Part shown: positions 20,866 through 26,005 of the stretch, piece by piece | Layout: every line of letters begins with the position of its first letter | How positions within the stretch are numbered: position 1 is the first letter of the stretch | Assembly: GCF_004342265.1 (NCBI RefSeq) | Contig: NZ_SMCS01000011.1 | Coordinates: forward strand, 1 to 64,000 | Direction of reading: 5' to 3' | Length of the DNA stretch: 64,000 bases | DNA from: Luteibacter rhizovicinus | GTDB lineage: Bacteria > Pseudomonadota > Gammaproteobacteria > Xanthomonadales > Rhodanobacteraceae | Program-made: the position numbers and the translations under genes | Notes under the pieces: model-generated | Databases searched by the model: none | What the model was told of the DNA's origin: nothing | Seen by the model: the letters and a program-made list of their open reading frames with translations, nothing else

Positions 20866-21819
20866 ATGCGCAAGACTCTGCTCGCTACCGCGATTTGCAT
20901 CGGCATCGGTTTCGCCCTCCCGGCGATGGCCGACGATACGATTACCGGAGGTGCCGGCCCAACGGCATCGCGTCATTCGACAGTTACACAAAGCTCATCG
21001 GCCGATAATTACTCCAACCAGAACAACGGCAACATGCGTGGCAACAGCGGCGACGCTTATGCCAACGGCCAGGGCAGTGCTTCGGCCAATAATGGCGGTA
21101 CCGCAAGCGCCTCCCTTTCCAATTCGTTCAACACCAGCAACGCGATTGCCGAAAGCAACCTCAGCGGCACCGTGAGCGGCATCACGACCATGGGCAACGG
21201 CAATATCGCCACCAATACGGGTAGCGCCGCCGGTGGCCACGGCGGATATGGCGGCGATGGCTATGGCGGCGACGGCTACGCCGGTAACGGCGGTAGCGGC
21301 GGCAATGGCGGCAACGCTCATTCGCGCTCCGGCGCGGGCGGCTCCGGCAACGGTTCCGGCGGCGATGCGGGTGCCGGTAGCGCGGCGGCTGGCGGCGATG
21401 GCTATGGCGACGGCGGTCTGGCACGCGTACGCGGCCGCAACGGCAATACCGGTTCGGCCACGGGCGGCGCAAGCGCCAGCACCGGCGGCGCGAGCACATC
21501 GGGCGCGGCGTCCGCTGCCGGCGGCGCTGGCATGGGTGCGGGCGGTTCCAGCGGTTCCTCGACTGCTTCGGCAGGATCGGGTGCATCCGGTGGCAGCGGC
21601 GGTGCCGGAACGGGCGGCAACGGTAGCGGTGCATCCGGCGGCGCGGGCGGTGCGGGTGGTTCGAACTCCGTCAACGCGGGCAGTTTTGACATGTCCAACC
21701 ACATGGAAGGTGCCGGCTCCGCGGCGGCGGGTGTACTCGTAATCGCACAGAACAGCGGCGCTGCTTCTCTCGTGCAGCAAAGCGTGAACGTGCAGGCAAA
21801 TCTGAACGTCGGTCACTGA
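20866..21819 (+). CDS. Gly/Ser-rich secreted protein, probable amyloid subunit
   Basis: A 317-residue protein with a clear signal peptide (cleavage near ALPAMA-DD, residue 22). Residues 23-111 are Asn/Ser-rich (SLSNSFNTSNAIAESNLSG). Residues 112-282 are almost entirely Gly, Ala and Ser with short GG-x repeats. The last 30 residues are different, with VLVIAQNSGAASLVQQ. Gln/Asn-rich, low-complexity secreted cargo next to FapD- and FapF-like genes fits the fibre-forming subunit role of FapB/FapC. The canonical FapC repeats are not recognisable, so the role rests on context. AGGAGA lies 5 bases before the ATG. Confidence 0.65.
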   Translation: MRKTLLATAICIGIGFALPAMADDTITGGAGPTASRHSTVTQSSSADNYSNQNNGNMRGNSGDAYANGQGSASANNGGTASASLSNSFNTSNAIAESNLSGTVSGITTMGNGNIATNTGSAAGGHGGYGGDGYGGDGYAGNGGSGGNGGNAHSRSGAGGSGNGSGGDAGAGSAAAGGDGYGDGGLARVRGRNGNTGSATGGASASTGGASTSGAASAAGGAGMGAGGSSGSSTASAGSGASGGSGGAGTGGNGSGASGGAGGAGGSNSVNAGSFDMSNHMEGAGSAAAGVLVIAQNSGAASLVQQSVNVQANLNVGH

Positions 21820-21827
21820 TGTAGCAG

Positions 21828-21866
21828 CGAAGCCTGCGGAACGAATCATCGTTCCGCAGGCCTTCG
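21828..21866 (+). other. perfect RNA hairpin between subunit and accessory genes
   Basis: GCCTGCGGAACGA and TCGTTCCGCAGGC (21832-21844, 21849-21861) form a perfect 13-bp stem with an ATCA loop. It extends another 5 bp (CGAAG/CTTCG) past one bulged C. No T-run follows, so it resembles an mRNA-stabilising or partial-attenuation structure rather than a full terminator. It starts 9 bases after the subunit stop. Confidence 0.75.
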
Positions 21867-21887
21867 TCCATCCGCCGGGAGAAAGCC

Positions 21888-22250
21888 ATGTTCACGTTCT
21901 TCGTTTCGCGGCATCGCGCCGCGACGGTCGCTGTCGGTCTGATGGTGCTTGCATGTGGAGTCGCACAGGCCACGCCGCCGCCTTCCGCCGACGATGCGCC
22001 GGGCCTGGGGCCACCCGTATCGAGCAGTGCGCTCGGCGAGATGTCCGGCGGAACGGATACCACCACCAACGGCATGACCATCGATGGCACGGTCAGCAAT
22101 ACGCAGACCAGTCATGTCTCCACGGGCATGAACGCCATCGATTCGAATTCCTTCCAGGGTGCGGCCGGCTTGCCGACCGTGATCCAGAACACCGGTAACA
22201 ACGTACTTATCCAGAACGCGACCATCGTCAACGTACGGCTCATACCGTAA
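21888..22250 (+). CDS. small secreted protein of the Fap-like operon
   Basis: A 120-residue protein with a signal peptide ending near VAQA-TPPP (residue 29). The middle is Ser/Thr/Asn-rich (GGTDTTTNGMTIDGTVSNTQ). The C-terminus (94-120) holds PTVIQNTGNNVLIQNATIV, which echoes the C-terminal motif of the Gly-rich protein upstream. It may be a minor fibre component or nucleator, like FapB; size also allows a FapA-like helper, though no sequence match supports either. GGGAGAAAG precedes the ATG. Its stop overlaps the next start (TAATG). Confidence 0.62.
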   Translation: MFTFFVSRHRAATVAVGLMVLACGVAQATPPPSADDAPGLGPPVSSSALGEMSGGTDTTTNGMTIDGTVSNTQTSHVSTGMNAIDSNSFQGAAGLPTVIQNTGNNVLIQNATIVNVRLIP

Positions 22251-22930
22251 TGCGATCCGGCCTGCTCCTGCTTGCACTTTTCGTCGCCGCGCCGGCTGCG
22301 CAGACCGCGAATGTGGAAGTGCAGAGCAGCCAGGGCACGTCGTACCACCTGCGCGTGACCAGCCTGAAGGAGGCGCGCTTCAGGAATACGATCCGGCAGA
22401 AGTACGACTTCAGTTGCGGTTCGGCAGCCGTCGCGACCCTTCTCACTTATCAGTACGGCGATCCCGTCGACGAACAGTCGGCATTCGATGTCATGTACGC
22501 GCATGGAGACCGCGCCAAGATCGCCAAAGAAGGCTTTTCGCTGCTCGATATCAAGCGCTTCCTCGCGTCGCGCGGCTTCGAGGCCGATGGCTTCGAGCTG
22601 CCGCTGGACAAACTGGGCGAGCAGGGTCTTCCCGCGATCGTACTGATCGACGAACGCGGCTATCACCACTTCGTCGTGGTGAAGGGCATGAAAGGCGGGC
22701 GCGTGCTGGTCGGCGACCCCGCTACCGGTACGCATTCGATGTCGCGCGGACGGTTCGAAGCTATGTGGAAGAGCCGCCTCGTCTTCGTCATTCATAACGA
22801 GCGCGAGCGCGCGATCTTCAACAGTCCCCGGGACTGGGCGGTCGCGCCGGCCGCGCCACTCAGCGATGGCATCGAACGCAACGGACTGGCTCCGATCGTC
22901 ATGCCCAAGCGCGGACCTGGTGACATATGA
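22250..22930 (+). CDS. fapD: periplasmic C39 cysteine protease, FapD-like
   Basis: A 226-residue protein with a signal peptide (about 1-19) and a single peptidase C39 domain. Catalytic residues are visible: C56 in YDFSCGSAAVATLLTYQYG, H140 in YHHFVVVKG and D156 in GDPATG. The flanking sequence FRNTIRQKYDFSCGSAA is typical of FapD, the protease needed for Fap amyloid export, and unlike the C39 domains of bacteriocin ABC exporters, which carry membrane and ATPase domains. It overlaps both neighbours (TAATG before, ATGA after), so it is strictly co-translated with them. Confidence 0.82.
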   Translation: MRSGLLLLALFVAAPAAQTANVEVQSSQGTSYHLRVTSLKEARFRNTIRQKYDFSCGSAAVATLLTYQYGDPVDEQSAFDVMYAHGDRAKIAKEGFSLLDIKRFLASRGFEADGFELPLDKLGEQGLPAIVLIDERGYHHFVVVKGMKGGRVLVGDPATGTHSMSRGRFEAMWKSRLVFVIHNERERAIFNSPRDWAVAPAAPLSDGIERNGLAPIVMPKRGPGDI

Positions 22931-23610
22931 ATCTTCAGCGCACCTCACTTCTCTTTGTCGCCGGCTGTGGCGCATACGCGCTTGCACCGCATGCGCATGC
23001 GGACGACTGGACTCCCGTTTCGGACGCACGCCTCGAAAGCGAACGCGGTGGTTTCGATCTTGGCGACGGACTCAAAGTCTCGTTCGGACTCGAACGCACG
23101 GTCATCGTCAACGGCATGACCCAGGTCAGGAATAGCGTAAGCATTCCCGACATATCGAAGATAACCACGGATGAGGCAAAGGCGCTTTCGCAGGCTTTCG
23201 GTCCGATCGTGATCGCCAACGGCAGCGGTAACAGCGTCAATGCCGCGCTTACGCCGGCCGCGAATAACGCGTCCGCGGCGCAGTCGGCCGCCGCCGCGAC
23301 CACGGCGGTGACGCAAGCAGCCTCTGCGGTGGCATCGGCTGCGCAGACCGCGGCGAGTGTCGCGCCTGCGAGTCATTCGGCTGCCGCAGCGCCGACGCCC
23401 GCGAGTCTGACGATTCCGACGACGACACTCCCTGCGCTGACCGCGCAGTCGCTCAACGTACCCGCTTTCGTCGTGCAGAACACGCTCGACAACCAGGCCA
23501 TCCAGGCCACAACCACGATCGACGCGTCGGTCAACAGCGTGCAGTTGCTCAGCGGCATGCAATTCCAGAGCAGTCTGCAGGACGCAATCGTTCGCTTCAG
23601 GGGAAACTGA
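22927..23610 (+). CDS. FapE-like secreted protein
   Basis: A 227-residue protein with a signal peptide (about 1-24). A conserved N-terminal block, GGFDLGDGLKVSFGLERTVI then VNGMTQVRNSVSIPDI, looks like the GL-x-VSFG-x-ER-x-V-x-ING pattern I associate with proteins next to fapF. A long Ala/Ser/Thr tract (about 100-160) precedes a C-terminal VVQNTLDNQAIQ segment related to motifs in the two upstream secreted proteins. FapE is a fibre-associated component in Pseudomonas. Assignment here is by position, export and motif. The start overlaps the protease stop by ATGA. Confidence 0.6.
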   Translation: MNLQRTSLLFVAGCGAYALAPHAHADDWTPVSDARLESERGGFDLGDGLKVSFGLERTVIVNGMTQVRNSVSIPDISKITTDEAKALSQAFGPIVIANGSGNSVNAALTPAANNASAAQSAAAATTAVTQAASAVASAAQTAASVAPASHSAAAAPTPASLTIPTTTLPALTAQSLNVPAFVVQNTLDNQAIQATTTIDASVNSVQLLSGMQFQSSLQDAIVRFRGN

Positions 23611-23613
23611 CGT

Positions 23614-24975
23614 ATGCACCGGACCGGCAGGTATCCGCACGCAACGATAGCGCTCGGTACGTTTGCTCTGGCCTGTCTTCCGATGTGTATCGGAGCAGCC
23701 TGGGCTACGGACGCACCGGTCGACCCGGCTTTGCGCGACCGCGTCGCGGCGCAGTCGCAGAAGCTCGACGCCATGCGTAGCCGCGTGGCGGAACAATCCG
23801 CCGAACTGGAGGAAATGAAGCGCGCGCTGGCGCGACAGGAAGCGGAGTTCAGCGATCTGCGCAAGGCGGTCGGACTCGACTCGCTGGACGCAAGTCGCGG
23901 CGGCTCGCTTGCCGCATCCGGACAGCAGGGCGGAGCGGCGCCGTCCGCGCCGCAGGACGCGACGACAACGGTTGCGCAATCGACCCGTCCTGTCGGCAAA
24001 CCCCCGGAGCAGGCCGACAGGCCGCCGGAGGTCGCACCGATCTTCGATCAGCCCGGCGTGCTCACGCCCAAGGGCAAGGTGATCATCGAGCCTTCGTATC
24101 AGTTCGGCTATTCGTCGAGCGATCGTGTCGCGCTTGTCGGCTACACCGTTATTCCCGCGATCCTGATCGGCCTGATCGATGTGCGCCAGGTGAAAACCAC
24201 GACGCAGACCGGCGCGATGGCATTCCGTTATGGTCTGACGAATCGCCTGGAGCTCGAAGTACGCGTGCCGTACGTGGACAGCCATACGGATACGATCAGT
24301 CGCGAAATATTCACCGGTGCCGCGCAGGACAATCTGTTCTCGTCCAGCGGAAAAGGTCTGGGCGATATCGAAGCGACGGCGCGCTACCAGATCAATAAGG
24401 GCGGTCCCGATTCGCCGTACTACGTCGGCTGGTTCCGCGTGAAGTCGCGCACGGGCAAAGACCCCTTCGAAGTCACCACCGACTGCGTTACCCGCTGCGT
24501 GCAGAATGCGACGGGTACGGGCTTGCCGCTGGAGCTGCCGACCGGCACGGGGTTTTATTCCGCACAGGCGGGCGTGACATGGCTGTATCCGTCGGACCCG
24601 GTCGTGTTCTTCGGCAATCTGAGCTATCTGCATAACTTCACGCGCAACAACGTCAGTCGCACCGTATTGCTTGCCGGCAAGCAATTCCTCGGGAATGTGA
24701 AAGCGGGCGACATCGCCGATGTCAGTGTCGGCATGGGCCTGGCGTTGAACGAAAAGGCGTCGATCAGCATCGGTTACGACCAGAGTTTCGTCGGTCGCAC
24801 GACCCAGAATGGCCAGGCGTTGTCGGCATCCGCGCGCACGGTACTGGGCTCGCTTCTCATCGGTGGCTCGTATCGATTCAGCGACAAGCGGACATTGAAC
24901 GTGACGCTTGGTGTCGGCGTGACGCGCGATACGCCGGACACCACCGTGACGGTGCGTTTGCCTATGAGTTACTAG
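23614..24975 (+). CDS. fapF: FapF-like outer-membrane amyloid exporter
   Basis: A 453-residue outer-membrane channel. After the signal peptide (to about 32) comes a periplasmic coiled coil (about 38-90, heptads rich in Leu/Ala/Glu). A Gly/Pro linker (91-145) leads to a beta-barrel beginning QPGVLTPKGKVIIEPSYQFG and ending with an aromatic residue (LPMSY). FapF of Pseudomonas has this layout: a trimeric coiled coil gating a 12-strand barrel that secretes Fap subunits. ALVGYTVIPAILIGLIDVR is a family hallmark. It begins 3 bases after the FapE-like stop and ends the operon. Confidence 0.82.
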   Translation: MHRTGRYPHATIALGTFALACLPMCIGAAWATDAPVDPALRDRVAAQSQKLDAMRSRVAEQSAELEEMKRALARQEAEFSDLRKAVGLDSLDASRGGSLAASGQQGGAAPSAPQDATTTVAQSTRPVGKPPEQADRPPEVAPIFDQPGVLTPKGKVIIEPSYQFGYSSSDRVALVGYTVIPAILIGLIDVRQVKTTTQTGAMAFRYGLTNRLELEVRVPYVDSHTDTISREIFTGAAQDNLFSSSGKGLGDIEATARYQINKGGPDSPYYVGWFRVKSRTGKDPFEVTTDCVTRCVQNATGTGLPLELPTGTGFYSAQAGVTWLYPSDPVVFFGNLSYLHNFTRNNVSRTVLLAGKQFLGNVKAGDIADVSVGMGLALNEKASISIGYDQSFVGRTTQNGQALSASARTVLGSLLIGGSYRFSDKRTLNVTLGVGVTRDTPDTTVTVRLPMSY

Positions 24976-25141: not shown

Positions 25142-26005
25142 ATGCGAAGCCGTATCCGTCATCTGGGCAAGGCCACGGCCAGCCTCACGATTCTGTCGCT
25201 GGCCATGATTGCTACGGCCGCACATGCACAGGATAAGAAGTCGCAGTCGCCGGCACTCGATAACGTCAGTATCTGGTTGGGCGGTTACTACGCCAATAAC
25301 GATACGACCCTCGGAGCGGCAACGCCCGATCGCACGACGAAGGGCGACGTCAATCTCGAGAAAGACCTCGGGTTCGATAAGCACAAGACGGTGCCACGTG
25401 CGCGTCTGGACTTTCTGATCGGCGAGCATCAGGGCTTCAGCTTCGATTACTACCGGATCGATCGCAGTCACGGCAGATCGATCAACGAGGACATTACGTT
25501 CCTCGGCCAACCATTCGACGCCAGCGCAAGCGTGAAGGCCAACGTCAAGTTCAACTTCGGTAGCGCGGCGTACAAGTGGTGGTTCGGTACCGGCAACGAT
25601 GTCTTCGGTGTGGGGCTGGGTGCGGCTTACTACAGGGTCAGCGGTAAAGTCAGCGGTACGGCCAGCGTCAACGTCGGCGATCAGTTCAACCAGTCGGGGA
25701 CGGCCAGTGCCAGCGCCAGCGCGAGTGCATGGGCTCCGAACCTGCAGTTGGGCTGGCGCCATGCGTTCAACGATCAGTGGCGCATGTACGTCAACGCATC
25801 GGGTGTGAAGAAGAGTGGCGGCAAACTCAACGGCCACATCTGGGATGCGGCGCTGGGTGTCGAGTGGTTCCCGTGGAAGAACGTGGGCTTCGGCGCCGAG
25901 TACGCGTACACGCAGGTCAAGCTGCATCAGGACAAGAAGAACTACGACCTGGACCTTGATATGAAACTCAACGGCCCGGCGGCGTACGTGCGCGTGCGCT
26001 TCTGA
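25142..26005 (+). CDS. outer-membrane beta-barrel protein of unknown function
   Basis: A 287-residue protein with a signal peptide ending AAHAQ-DKK (about 29). Alternating aromatic strands run throughout (GGYYANNDTT, FDYYRIDRSHG, YKWWFGTGNDVFGVGLGAAYY) and it ends VRVRF, the C-terminal Phe of barrels. About ten strands are likely. No specific family is recognised. It lies 166 bases after fapF, so it may be an independent gene or a distal member of that unit. Confidence 0.72.
   Translation: MRSRIRHLGKATASLTILSLAMIATAAHAQDKKSQSPALDNVSIWLGGYYANNDTTLGAATPDRTTKGDVNLEKDLGFDKHKTVPRARLDFLIGEHQGFSFDYYRIDRSHGRSINEDITFLGQPFDASASVKANVKFNFGSAAYKWWFGTGNDVFGVGLGAAYYRVSGKVSGTASVNVGDQFNQSGTASASASASAWAPNLQLGWRHAFNDQWRMYVNASGVKKSGGKLNGHIWDAALGVEWFPWKNVGFGAEYAYTQVKLHQDKKNYDLDLDMKLNGPAAYVRVRF

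Follow-up and report, generated by a model that had tools for sequence, protein, structure and literature searches.

The Fap system, encoded by fapABCDEF in Pseudomonas and other Pseudomonadota, has been called evolutionarily fixed, with three repeats per subunit (PMC12822426). Three repeats are nearly universal (PMC12392863, PMC12822426), and a single fap operon is found in 99.5% of fap-bearing genomes (PMC12392863). Residue C38 of FapD is needed for the secretion of FapC and the target of FapD is unclear, while the N-terminus of FapE and the linker of FapF look processed and the Fap proteins carry no canonical C39 sites (PMC5557850). A 2025 review states that FapD is thought to process FapE and FapF (PMC12822426). 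Homologues of fapD and fapF also co-occur in five additional phyla; the pairing of protease and barrel outside fap is thus already in print, with subunits not described in the portion of that paper available (PMC6173800). A coiled-coil motif has been reported (PMC6173795), as have hidden Markov models (HMMs) for Fap together with the Fap systems of Rhodanobacter and Stenotrophomonas (PMC3792158). All of these papers are cited for the portions of their text that were available.

Here we analyze a five-gene cluster at positions 20866-24975 of a 64,000-nucleotide stretch of Luteibacter rhizovicinus DNA (contig NZ_SMCS01000011.1, positions 1 to 64,000; hereafter the window). An earlier interpretation of the letters alone (the sequence-only reading) had described it as a reduced or diverged Fap operon. 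Our combined findings point to a real, conserved, Fap-related system that most likely functions like a Fap operon and, by its protease phylogeny, is a separate lineage and not a degraded fap operon. We do not call it a Fap operon, because the three repeats per subunit and the FapA protein that mark Fap were not found in it. None of the titles and abstracts listed in our searches described the five-gene system, subscription papers and preprints being outside the scope of those searches.

Layout and conservation of the cluster

The five genes, P1 to P5, run on the + strand throughout and are separated by junctions of 68, -1, -4 and 3 bases, exactly as the sequence-only reading had them. All five products have signal-peptide-like starts, as read by eye.

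20866..21819, + strand: P1, 317 codons, secreted Gly/Ala/Ser-rich protein occupying the FapC position, putative major subunit; found at full length in 38 of 40 family loci
21888..22250, + strand: P2, 120 residues, secreted, with a leader motif and one repeat, putative minor subunit or nucleator; double-glycine motif in 79 of 79 named P2
22250..22930, + strand: P3, 226 codons, C39 cysteine protease with a signal-peptide-like start, FapD relative (Pfam, NCBIfam, invariant triad)
22927..23610, + strand: P4, 227 codons, FapE-like secreted protein with an N-terminal leader, a variable Ala/Thr linker and a C-terminal P2-like segment
23614..24975, + strand: P5, 453 codons, FapF-like outer-membrane barrel with an N-terminal coiled-coil-like region (NCBIfam FapF, PDB FapF)

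Conservation was assessed in two main sets of loci, individual members of which carry L numbers. From genomes of the window's family we took 40 loci with a close form of P5 (the family loci) and 20 with a distant form. A scan of genome contigs gave 594 candidates, at least 534 of which were confirmed stretches, and the best 80 of these are the named loci. P1-P2-P3-P4-P5 occur in the same order in 38 of the 40 family loci, and contig ends account for the two incomplete ones (L057 and L070); this co-occurrence in a fixed order argues that the arrangement goes beyond chance. All five genes are also present in 77 of the 80 named loci, from Luteibacter to Cupriavidus, with P1 shortened in some, and the three incomplete ones (L259, L262, L273) are again cut by contig ends. 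The genera represented include Luteibacter, Dyella, Rhodanobacter, Lysobacter, Luteimonas, Pseudoxanthomonas, Cupriavidus, Ralstonia, Pandoraea and Burkholderia. The gene set is therefore conserved together in relatives, as the sequence-only reading required.

P3 and P5 are relatives of FapD and FapF

P1, P2 and P4 gave no match to any family in Pfam or NCBIfam at E<0.05. P3 contains a C39 peptidase domain (Pfam PF03412, E 6.6e-20), and its best NCBIfam model is FapD (E 4.4e-40, 137 bits), with FilB second at 129 bits. The best NCBIfam model for P5 is FapF (E 6.3e-43, 147 bits), with FilC at 49 bits, and P5 residues 138-451 match the crystallized FapF barrel in the PDB (E 3e-25). Thus neither protein is closer to another secretion family, although the gap is small for P3, and by homology P5 is a FapF-type and P3 a FapD-type relative. 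The triad C56, H140 and D156, proposed earlier, is invariant in all 24 aligned P3 sequences, window included; a pattern search in the named loci, stricter than the aligned triad, found it in 62 of 79, so the alignment was taken. The FapF architecture previously ascribed to P5 holds for the barrel, while its N-terminal coiled-coil-like part was judged by eye.

P5 could instead be an uptake porin of the hydrophobic-substrate family (COG4313, PMC6173800), with the linked secreted proteins serving otherwise. The PTG motif of FapF is common to that family according to the available text of the same paper, it is found in 39 of 41 P5 sequences of the window's family, and some distant P5 members without a coiled-coil-like region are convergent to P1-P4. 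However, P5 specifically matches FapF, is linked to P1-P4 whichever its orientation, and carries in its linker the same leader as P2 and P4, which makes a porin role highly improbable.

A lineage separate from canonical fap

In the window's own genome, the only P5 match is the P5 gene itself. Across the family, P5 was matched in 125 of 233 genomes. The close form was present in 94 genomes (the window itself and matches of 59-84% identity, including one fragment), the distant form in 43 (24-30% identity, one a fragment) and both in 13, with one further genome showing a weak match only; these counts were made by hand from match rows. The distant form is canonical fap: in 19 of the 20 loci, position and sequence pattern identified FapA, FapB, FapC and FapE, and in the remaining one (L078) FapE alone. 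For five of the 13 two-form genomes (G068, G069, G085, G100 and G171) both clusters were retrieved and both are complete, while for the other eight the basis is P5/FapF matches or one cluster. L083, on one contig of G002, holds two FapF-like genes about 8 kb apart.

In the protease tree, window-type sequences did not group with canonical FapD: 25 of the former and 16 of the latter lie on opposite sides of a 100/99 branch. The tree is unrooted and covers a chosen subset, three long-branched canonical rows in it are perhaps misplaced according to a program warning, and "sister lineage" is used here for separateness, with no order of origin implied.

The cluster might nonetheless be a decaying or reduced canonical fap operon that has lost fapA and fapB. 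In neither the 64 kb window nor the 40 family loci did HMMs for FapA, FapB, FapC and the Fap repeat, built from canonical loci of the same family, give a match at E<=0.01, and the FapA model found none in neighboring-family, other-family or named window-type loci either. This lack of a FapA-like gene, together with the low scores to the FapD and FapF models, would fit such decay. Against it stand the tree separation and the coexistence of both FapF forms in 13 of 233 genomes, for which we reject it, as well as frames that are open and a gene order that is kept across families. Decay is thus very improbable, and the "reduced" part of the sequence-only reading is not borne out.

P5 profile matches extend to 141 of 398 order-level and 40 of 369 class-level genomes, and those of a wider P5 profile to 41 of 398 phylum-level genomes, with both forms mixed throughout. 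The neighboring family contributed 20 loci. The complete window-type set of five genes is present in 17 of them, with P1 of L163 truncated at a contig end. The remaining three, L154, L159 and L166, are fap-like and have a tandem pair of FapC genes and a FapD that branches deeply. We also sampled 20 loci from other families, eight of them retaken as wider stretches. Colinear window-type clusters were found in L171, L173, L174, L176 and L177 (L174 with P1 cut), and P2-P3-P4 with a convergent P5 in L190-L194. Among the latter, a P1 match is present in L190, L192 and L194 and multi-repeat subunits take its place in L191 and L193, so that the P1 or multi-repeat gene, P2, P3 and P4 stay linked despite the convergent P5. 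L181, L183 and L195 are partial or divergent, only P5 was seen in L196 and L197, and L184, L186, L187, L188 and L189 are canonical-type, with L187 and L189 incomplete in the stretch.

Several observations stand apart from this pattern. The P5-like barrel at L197:275-1618 (the same as L185) has an odd N-terminal domain, FecR-like by eye, with no P1-P4 match in 12 kb. L220 lies on a contig labeled Candidatus Eremiobacteraeota and holds a typical Lysobacterales-type copy (62% identity, five genes), perhaps mis-binned. In the window itself, an outer-membrane beta-barrel gene (25142-26005) lies directly 3' of the operon. We rejected it as a sixth member: among the 40 family loci, a homologue adjoins the system in all 10 from the same genus and in L059, but in none of the remaining 29.

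A double-glycine leader common to P2, P4 and P5

P2, P4 and the P5 linker have in common the motif V-S/G-x-x-x-L-D/A-x-x-R/S-G-G, at the following sites.

22014..22052, + strand: P2 double-glycine leader, residues 43-55 (V44, S45, L49, G54, G55), predicted P3 cleavage after G55
23014..23052, + strand: P4 double-glycine leader, residues 30-42 (V31, S32, L36, R40, G41, G42), predicted P3 cleavage after G42
23866..23904, + strand: P5 linker motif, residues 85-97 (V86, G87, L91, R95, G96, G97), predicted P3 cleavage after G97

Profiles were compared by hhalign probability, with column permutations as the control. The leaders of P2 and P4 matched at 97, those of P4 and P5 at 64 and those of P2 and P5 at 52, with 0 of 100 permutations as high in each case, and a window scan with the P4 HMM also picked P2 (E 1.4e-5). 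In the named loci the motif is present in 79 of 79 P2 and 76 of 80 P4, and in the P5 linker in 74 of 80 by a relaxed pattern or 54 of 80 when L-x3-RG is demanded. The window and family loci have it in 39 of 40 P2 (the match in L060 falling inside the signal peptide), 37 of 41 P4 and, by the strict pattern, 21 of 41 P5; these counts vary with the pattern used. Some distant P4 (L171, L173) have L-T/S-D-x-x-L-x-x-L-R-G-G. The motif was found in none of 40 P1 sequences, window included. Its positions agree with the spacing -12, -11, -7, -2 and -1 of the C39 double-glycine consensus, and P3 is predicted to cut at one site each in P2, in P4 and in the linker of P5.

The same leader ties P4 to FapE (hhalign 96, 0 of 100 permutations). 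The earlier assignment of P4 as FapE-like is therefore upheld for its N-terminus (91, 0 of 60) but not for its C-terminus, for which 11 of 60 permutations scored as high against the FapE C-terminus. The canonical FapE HMM found 5 of 39 P4 at E<0.01, the window P4 not among them. AlphaFold gave P4 a modest model (predicted local distance difference test, pLDDT, 66.5) with a helix at 33-40 over the leader. Comparisons of the P4 C-terminus with that of P1 (11 of 60) and with canonical repeats (36 of 60) were not significant. In the canonical-type loci L184 and L187, the FapE leader and FapF linker are alike by eye. L183:3475-4569 encodes a 365-residue P4 homologue whose N-terminal part weakly matches coiled-coil families and which adjoins two P1-like Asn/Asp/Ser-rich proteins.

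Diverged Fap-type repeats in P2 and probably P1

The description of P1 as Gly/Ala/Ser-rich was accurate (27.4% Gly, 17.0% Ala, 15.1% Ser). Conservation lies at its ends, in the signal-peptide-like start, a segment near residues 85-117 and the last 45 residues, and the part between them is Gly-rich.

20866..20931, + strand: signal peptide of P1 as judged by eye, residues 1-22, its initial MRKT being conserved in alignments
21220..21678, + strand: P1 Gly-rich middle, residues 119-271, 42.5% Gly, no confident structure
21679..21816, + strand: P1 C-terminal segment with one putative Fap-type repeat, AGxxxxAQNSGxxxLxQQxVxVQAN (hhalign)
22128..22247, + strand: P2 single Fap-type repeat, residues 81-120 (hhalign)

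The Gly content ranges from 20.9 to 29.9% in 39 family P1 (>200 residues) and from 11.3 to 36.5% in 72 named P1 (>250 residues), and in L171, L173, L176 and L177 the same ends enclose Asn/Asp/Ser-rich tandem stretches. The P1 counterpart of L191 and L193 has four repeats of the form N-x-I-x-x-x-A-F-x-x-x-x-G-I-x-Q-x-Q-Q-N-x-G. Such four-repeat Fap-type subunit genes lie at L191:4258-5160, L191:7721-8641 and L193:6093-7001, in window-type loci with P5 convergent, and in L191 two of them flank P2-P3-P4.

These four-repeat homologues matched the canonical FapB/FapC repeats (hhalign 92), the P2 repeat (95) and the P1 C-terminus (93), each with 0 of 100 permutations as high. The P1 C-terminus also matched the P2 repeat (0 of 60), and nine distant P1 C-termini gave a weak match to canonical repeats (25, 0 of 100). 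The P2 repeat matched canonical repeats at 58 (0 of 60) and, in a second test, at 44 (1 of 100). The evidence for the Fap-type nature of P2 is thus fairly direct, and since P2 carries one diverged repeat it is a plausible counterpart of FapB, or nucleator. A single diverged Fap-type repeat in the P1 C-terminus is supported less directly: the kinship of P1 with FapC is transitive, bridged by the four-repeat homologues, because the direct profile comparison was not significant. A comparison of the P1 N-terminal part with P2 (probability 4, 0 of 60) was weak and left unused, and low-complexity tblastn matches of P1 in canonical loci (19-38%) were disregarded as compositional.

Measured against the three imperfect repeats of FapB and FapC, P1 and P2 have at most one diverged repeat each, and four occur only in the L191/L193 homologues; no named P1 had more than one at the threshold used. 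The sequence-only reading had found no recognizable FapA or FapB and a main subunit without the usual FapC repeats. Both statements stand at the HMM level and fall short for the repeats, of which profile-profile comparison finds a diverged Fap-type copy, transitively so in P1. The canonical subunit and repeat HMMs found 0 of 39 P1 and 0 of 39 P2 at E<0.01. The surveys in PMC12822426 and PMC12392863 require a FapB/C repeat HMM, as described in their available text, and for this reason would likely miss the lineage.

The properties of P1 also allow for another product of the same export apparatus, namely a disordered Gly-rich, elsewhere Asn/Asp/Ser-rich, adhesive or hydrated coat with no amyloid fibre, in which P1 would be tethered at the surface by its C-terminal repeat through P4/P2. 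The middle of P1 is labile in composition across lineages (Gly-rich versus Asn/Asp/Ser-rich) and has no confident structure, and the absence of more than one repeat in named P1 at the threshold used likewise suits a coat. However, the repeat is related to Fap repeats, its four copies in L191 and L193 point to stacking, and P2 is a repeat-bearing partner. We consider a coat unlikely, at perhaps one chance in a few.

A hairpin after the presumed main subunit gene

The gap between P1 and P2 holds a strong stem-loop.

21827..21867, + strand: strong stem-loop (z -4.7; -34.5 kcal/mol for the whole P1-P2 gap)

We folded the first 110 bases of gaps of 40-260 bases, with mononucleotide shuffles as an imperfect control, and found z<-2 in 65 of 75 P1-P2 gaps versus 1 of 46 P4-P5 gaps, P4-P5 gaps of <40 bases being excluded. 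In a chosen set of 12 loci, drawn from the 80 named ones and the window, both-sided changes occur in at least one sequence for 9 of 13 stem pairs. In canonical fap loci of the family (L071-L090), 14 of 19 fapC-fapD gaps form a strong stem-loop. The fapB-fapC gaps had none (0 of 15), but at 27-39 bases they are too short for such a stem and make an unfair control. The hairpin suggests that P1 is made in excess, and because a conserved hairpin trails P1 as one often trails fapC, P1 can be placed in the fapC slot.

Proposed mechanism and its standing

We infer secretion, cleavage and fibre formation from these sequence features as follows. P1-P5 would enter the periplasm by Sec, and P5 would form the outer-membrane pore, by homology to FapF. 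The periplasmic protease P3 would cut the double-glycine leader in P2, in P4 and in the P5 linker between coiled coil and barrel. This cleavage may license subunit secretion via P5, since in Pseudomonas the secretion of FapC depends on FapD. As the counterpart of FapE, P4 would remain on the surface and serve as an anchor or initiator, and P2, with its one Fap-type repeat, would nucleate. P1 would be the major product, given its position and downstream hairpin, as for fapC. Its single C-terminal repeat may dock into a cross-beta core, with the bulk or sheath supplied by its long Gly-rich chain, and the resulting surface material would be a hybrid of amyloid and silk-like character.

Several results weigh against this reading. 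The NCBIfam equivalog cut-offs were missed by both P3 (FapD, 137<330) and P5 (FapF, 147<700), and the lead of FapD over FilB for P3 is slim (137 versus 129 bits). The link of P2 to canonical repeats was less clean in the second test than in the first (1 of 100 versus 0 of 60), and against the third repeat of FapB 44 of 100 permutations scored as high. Compared directly with canonical FapB/FapC repeats, the P1 C-terminus of the window lineage reached a probability of about 1 (18 of 60 and 30 of 100 permutations), and the bridge between the two is narrow, consisting of 12 repeats from three genes in two loci. A single repeat per subunit may be insufficient for a FapC-style three-layer core, and AlphaFold returned an unusable model of P1 (pLDDT 38), in which the repeat shows a weak hairpin (290-297/301-308). 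As to the leaders, the double glycine is missing from P2 of the distant homologues L171, L183, L191, L193 and L194, the canonical FapE leader and FapF linker do not match significantly (7 of 100), and neither do the C-termini of P4 and FapE (11 of 60). The FapF trimerization motif R-h-x-x-h-E was found in only 1 of 41 family P5 and 4 of 80 named P5; it is also rare in the canonical FapF of the family (3 of 20), and we set it aside as supporting neither side.

Nonetheless, a Fap-type system for export and assembly that works as proposed and belongs to a different lineage from fapABCDEF is in our judgment the probable explanation, at about two chances in three. We give roughly even chances to the broader proposal of a second, unstudied class of C39/FapF-dependent surface fibre, in which one Fap-type repeat caps a long low-complexity chain of lineage-swapped composition (Gly-rich and silk-like, or Asn/Asp/Ser-rich) and one protease matures three partners at their common double-glycine leader, gating the pore. 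Such a class would span Lysobacterales, Burkholderiaceae and other Gammaproteobacteria.

If this is true, Fap gains a large sister branch that breaks the three-repeat and single-operon rules. The question of the FapD target would become directly testable, with P4, P5 and P2 carrying a conserved leader and exact predicted cuts. A Gly-rich secreted chain with a defined pore may also be of interest to biomaterial workers.

Comparison with known systems

The putative Fil pilus of Acinetobacter (NCBIfam FilB, FilC) has a similar pairing of protease and barrel, to which P3 (FilB, 129 bits) and, weakly, P5 (FilC, 49 bits) are related. In contrast to a Fil system, P5 is far closer to FapF, and FapD and FapF outscore FilB and FilC, FapD slightly so; no other Fil model turned up in NCBIfam scans of P1, P2 and P4, the library content for such models being unchecked. 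The C39 bacteriocin exporters resemble the cluster in the spacing of the leader relative to the predicted cut (V/L at -12, S/T at -11, L at -7, GG at -2/-1). Unlike them, P3 is a free protein with a signal-peptide-like start and no ATP-binding cassette (ABC) transporter part, and its substrates should first be exported by Sec.

The cluster is most like Fap itself: the C39 protease, FapE-like protein and FapF-like pore follow the D-E-F order, genes for secreted subunits precede them, and a strong hairpin comes after the presumed main subunit gene. It differs in carrying one diverged repeat per subunit where Fap nearly always has three (available text of PMC12822426), in that no FapA was found in it, though some published Fap variants lack FapA too, and in a main protein that is Gly- or Asn/Asp/Ser-rich. 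It also has clear double-glycine leaders and forms a separate lineage.

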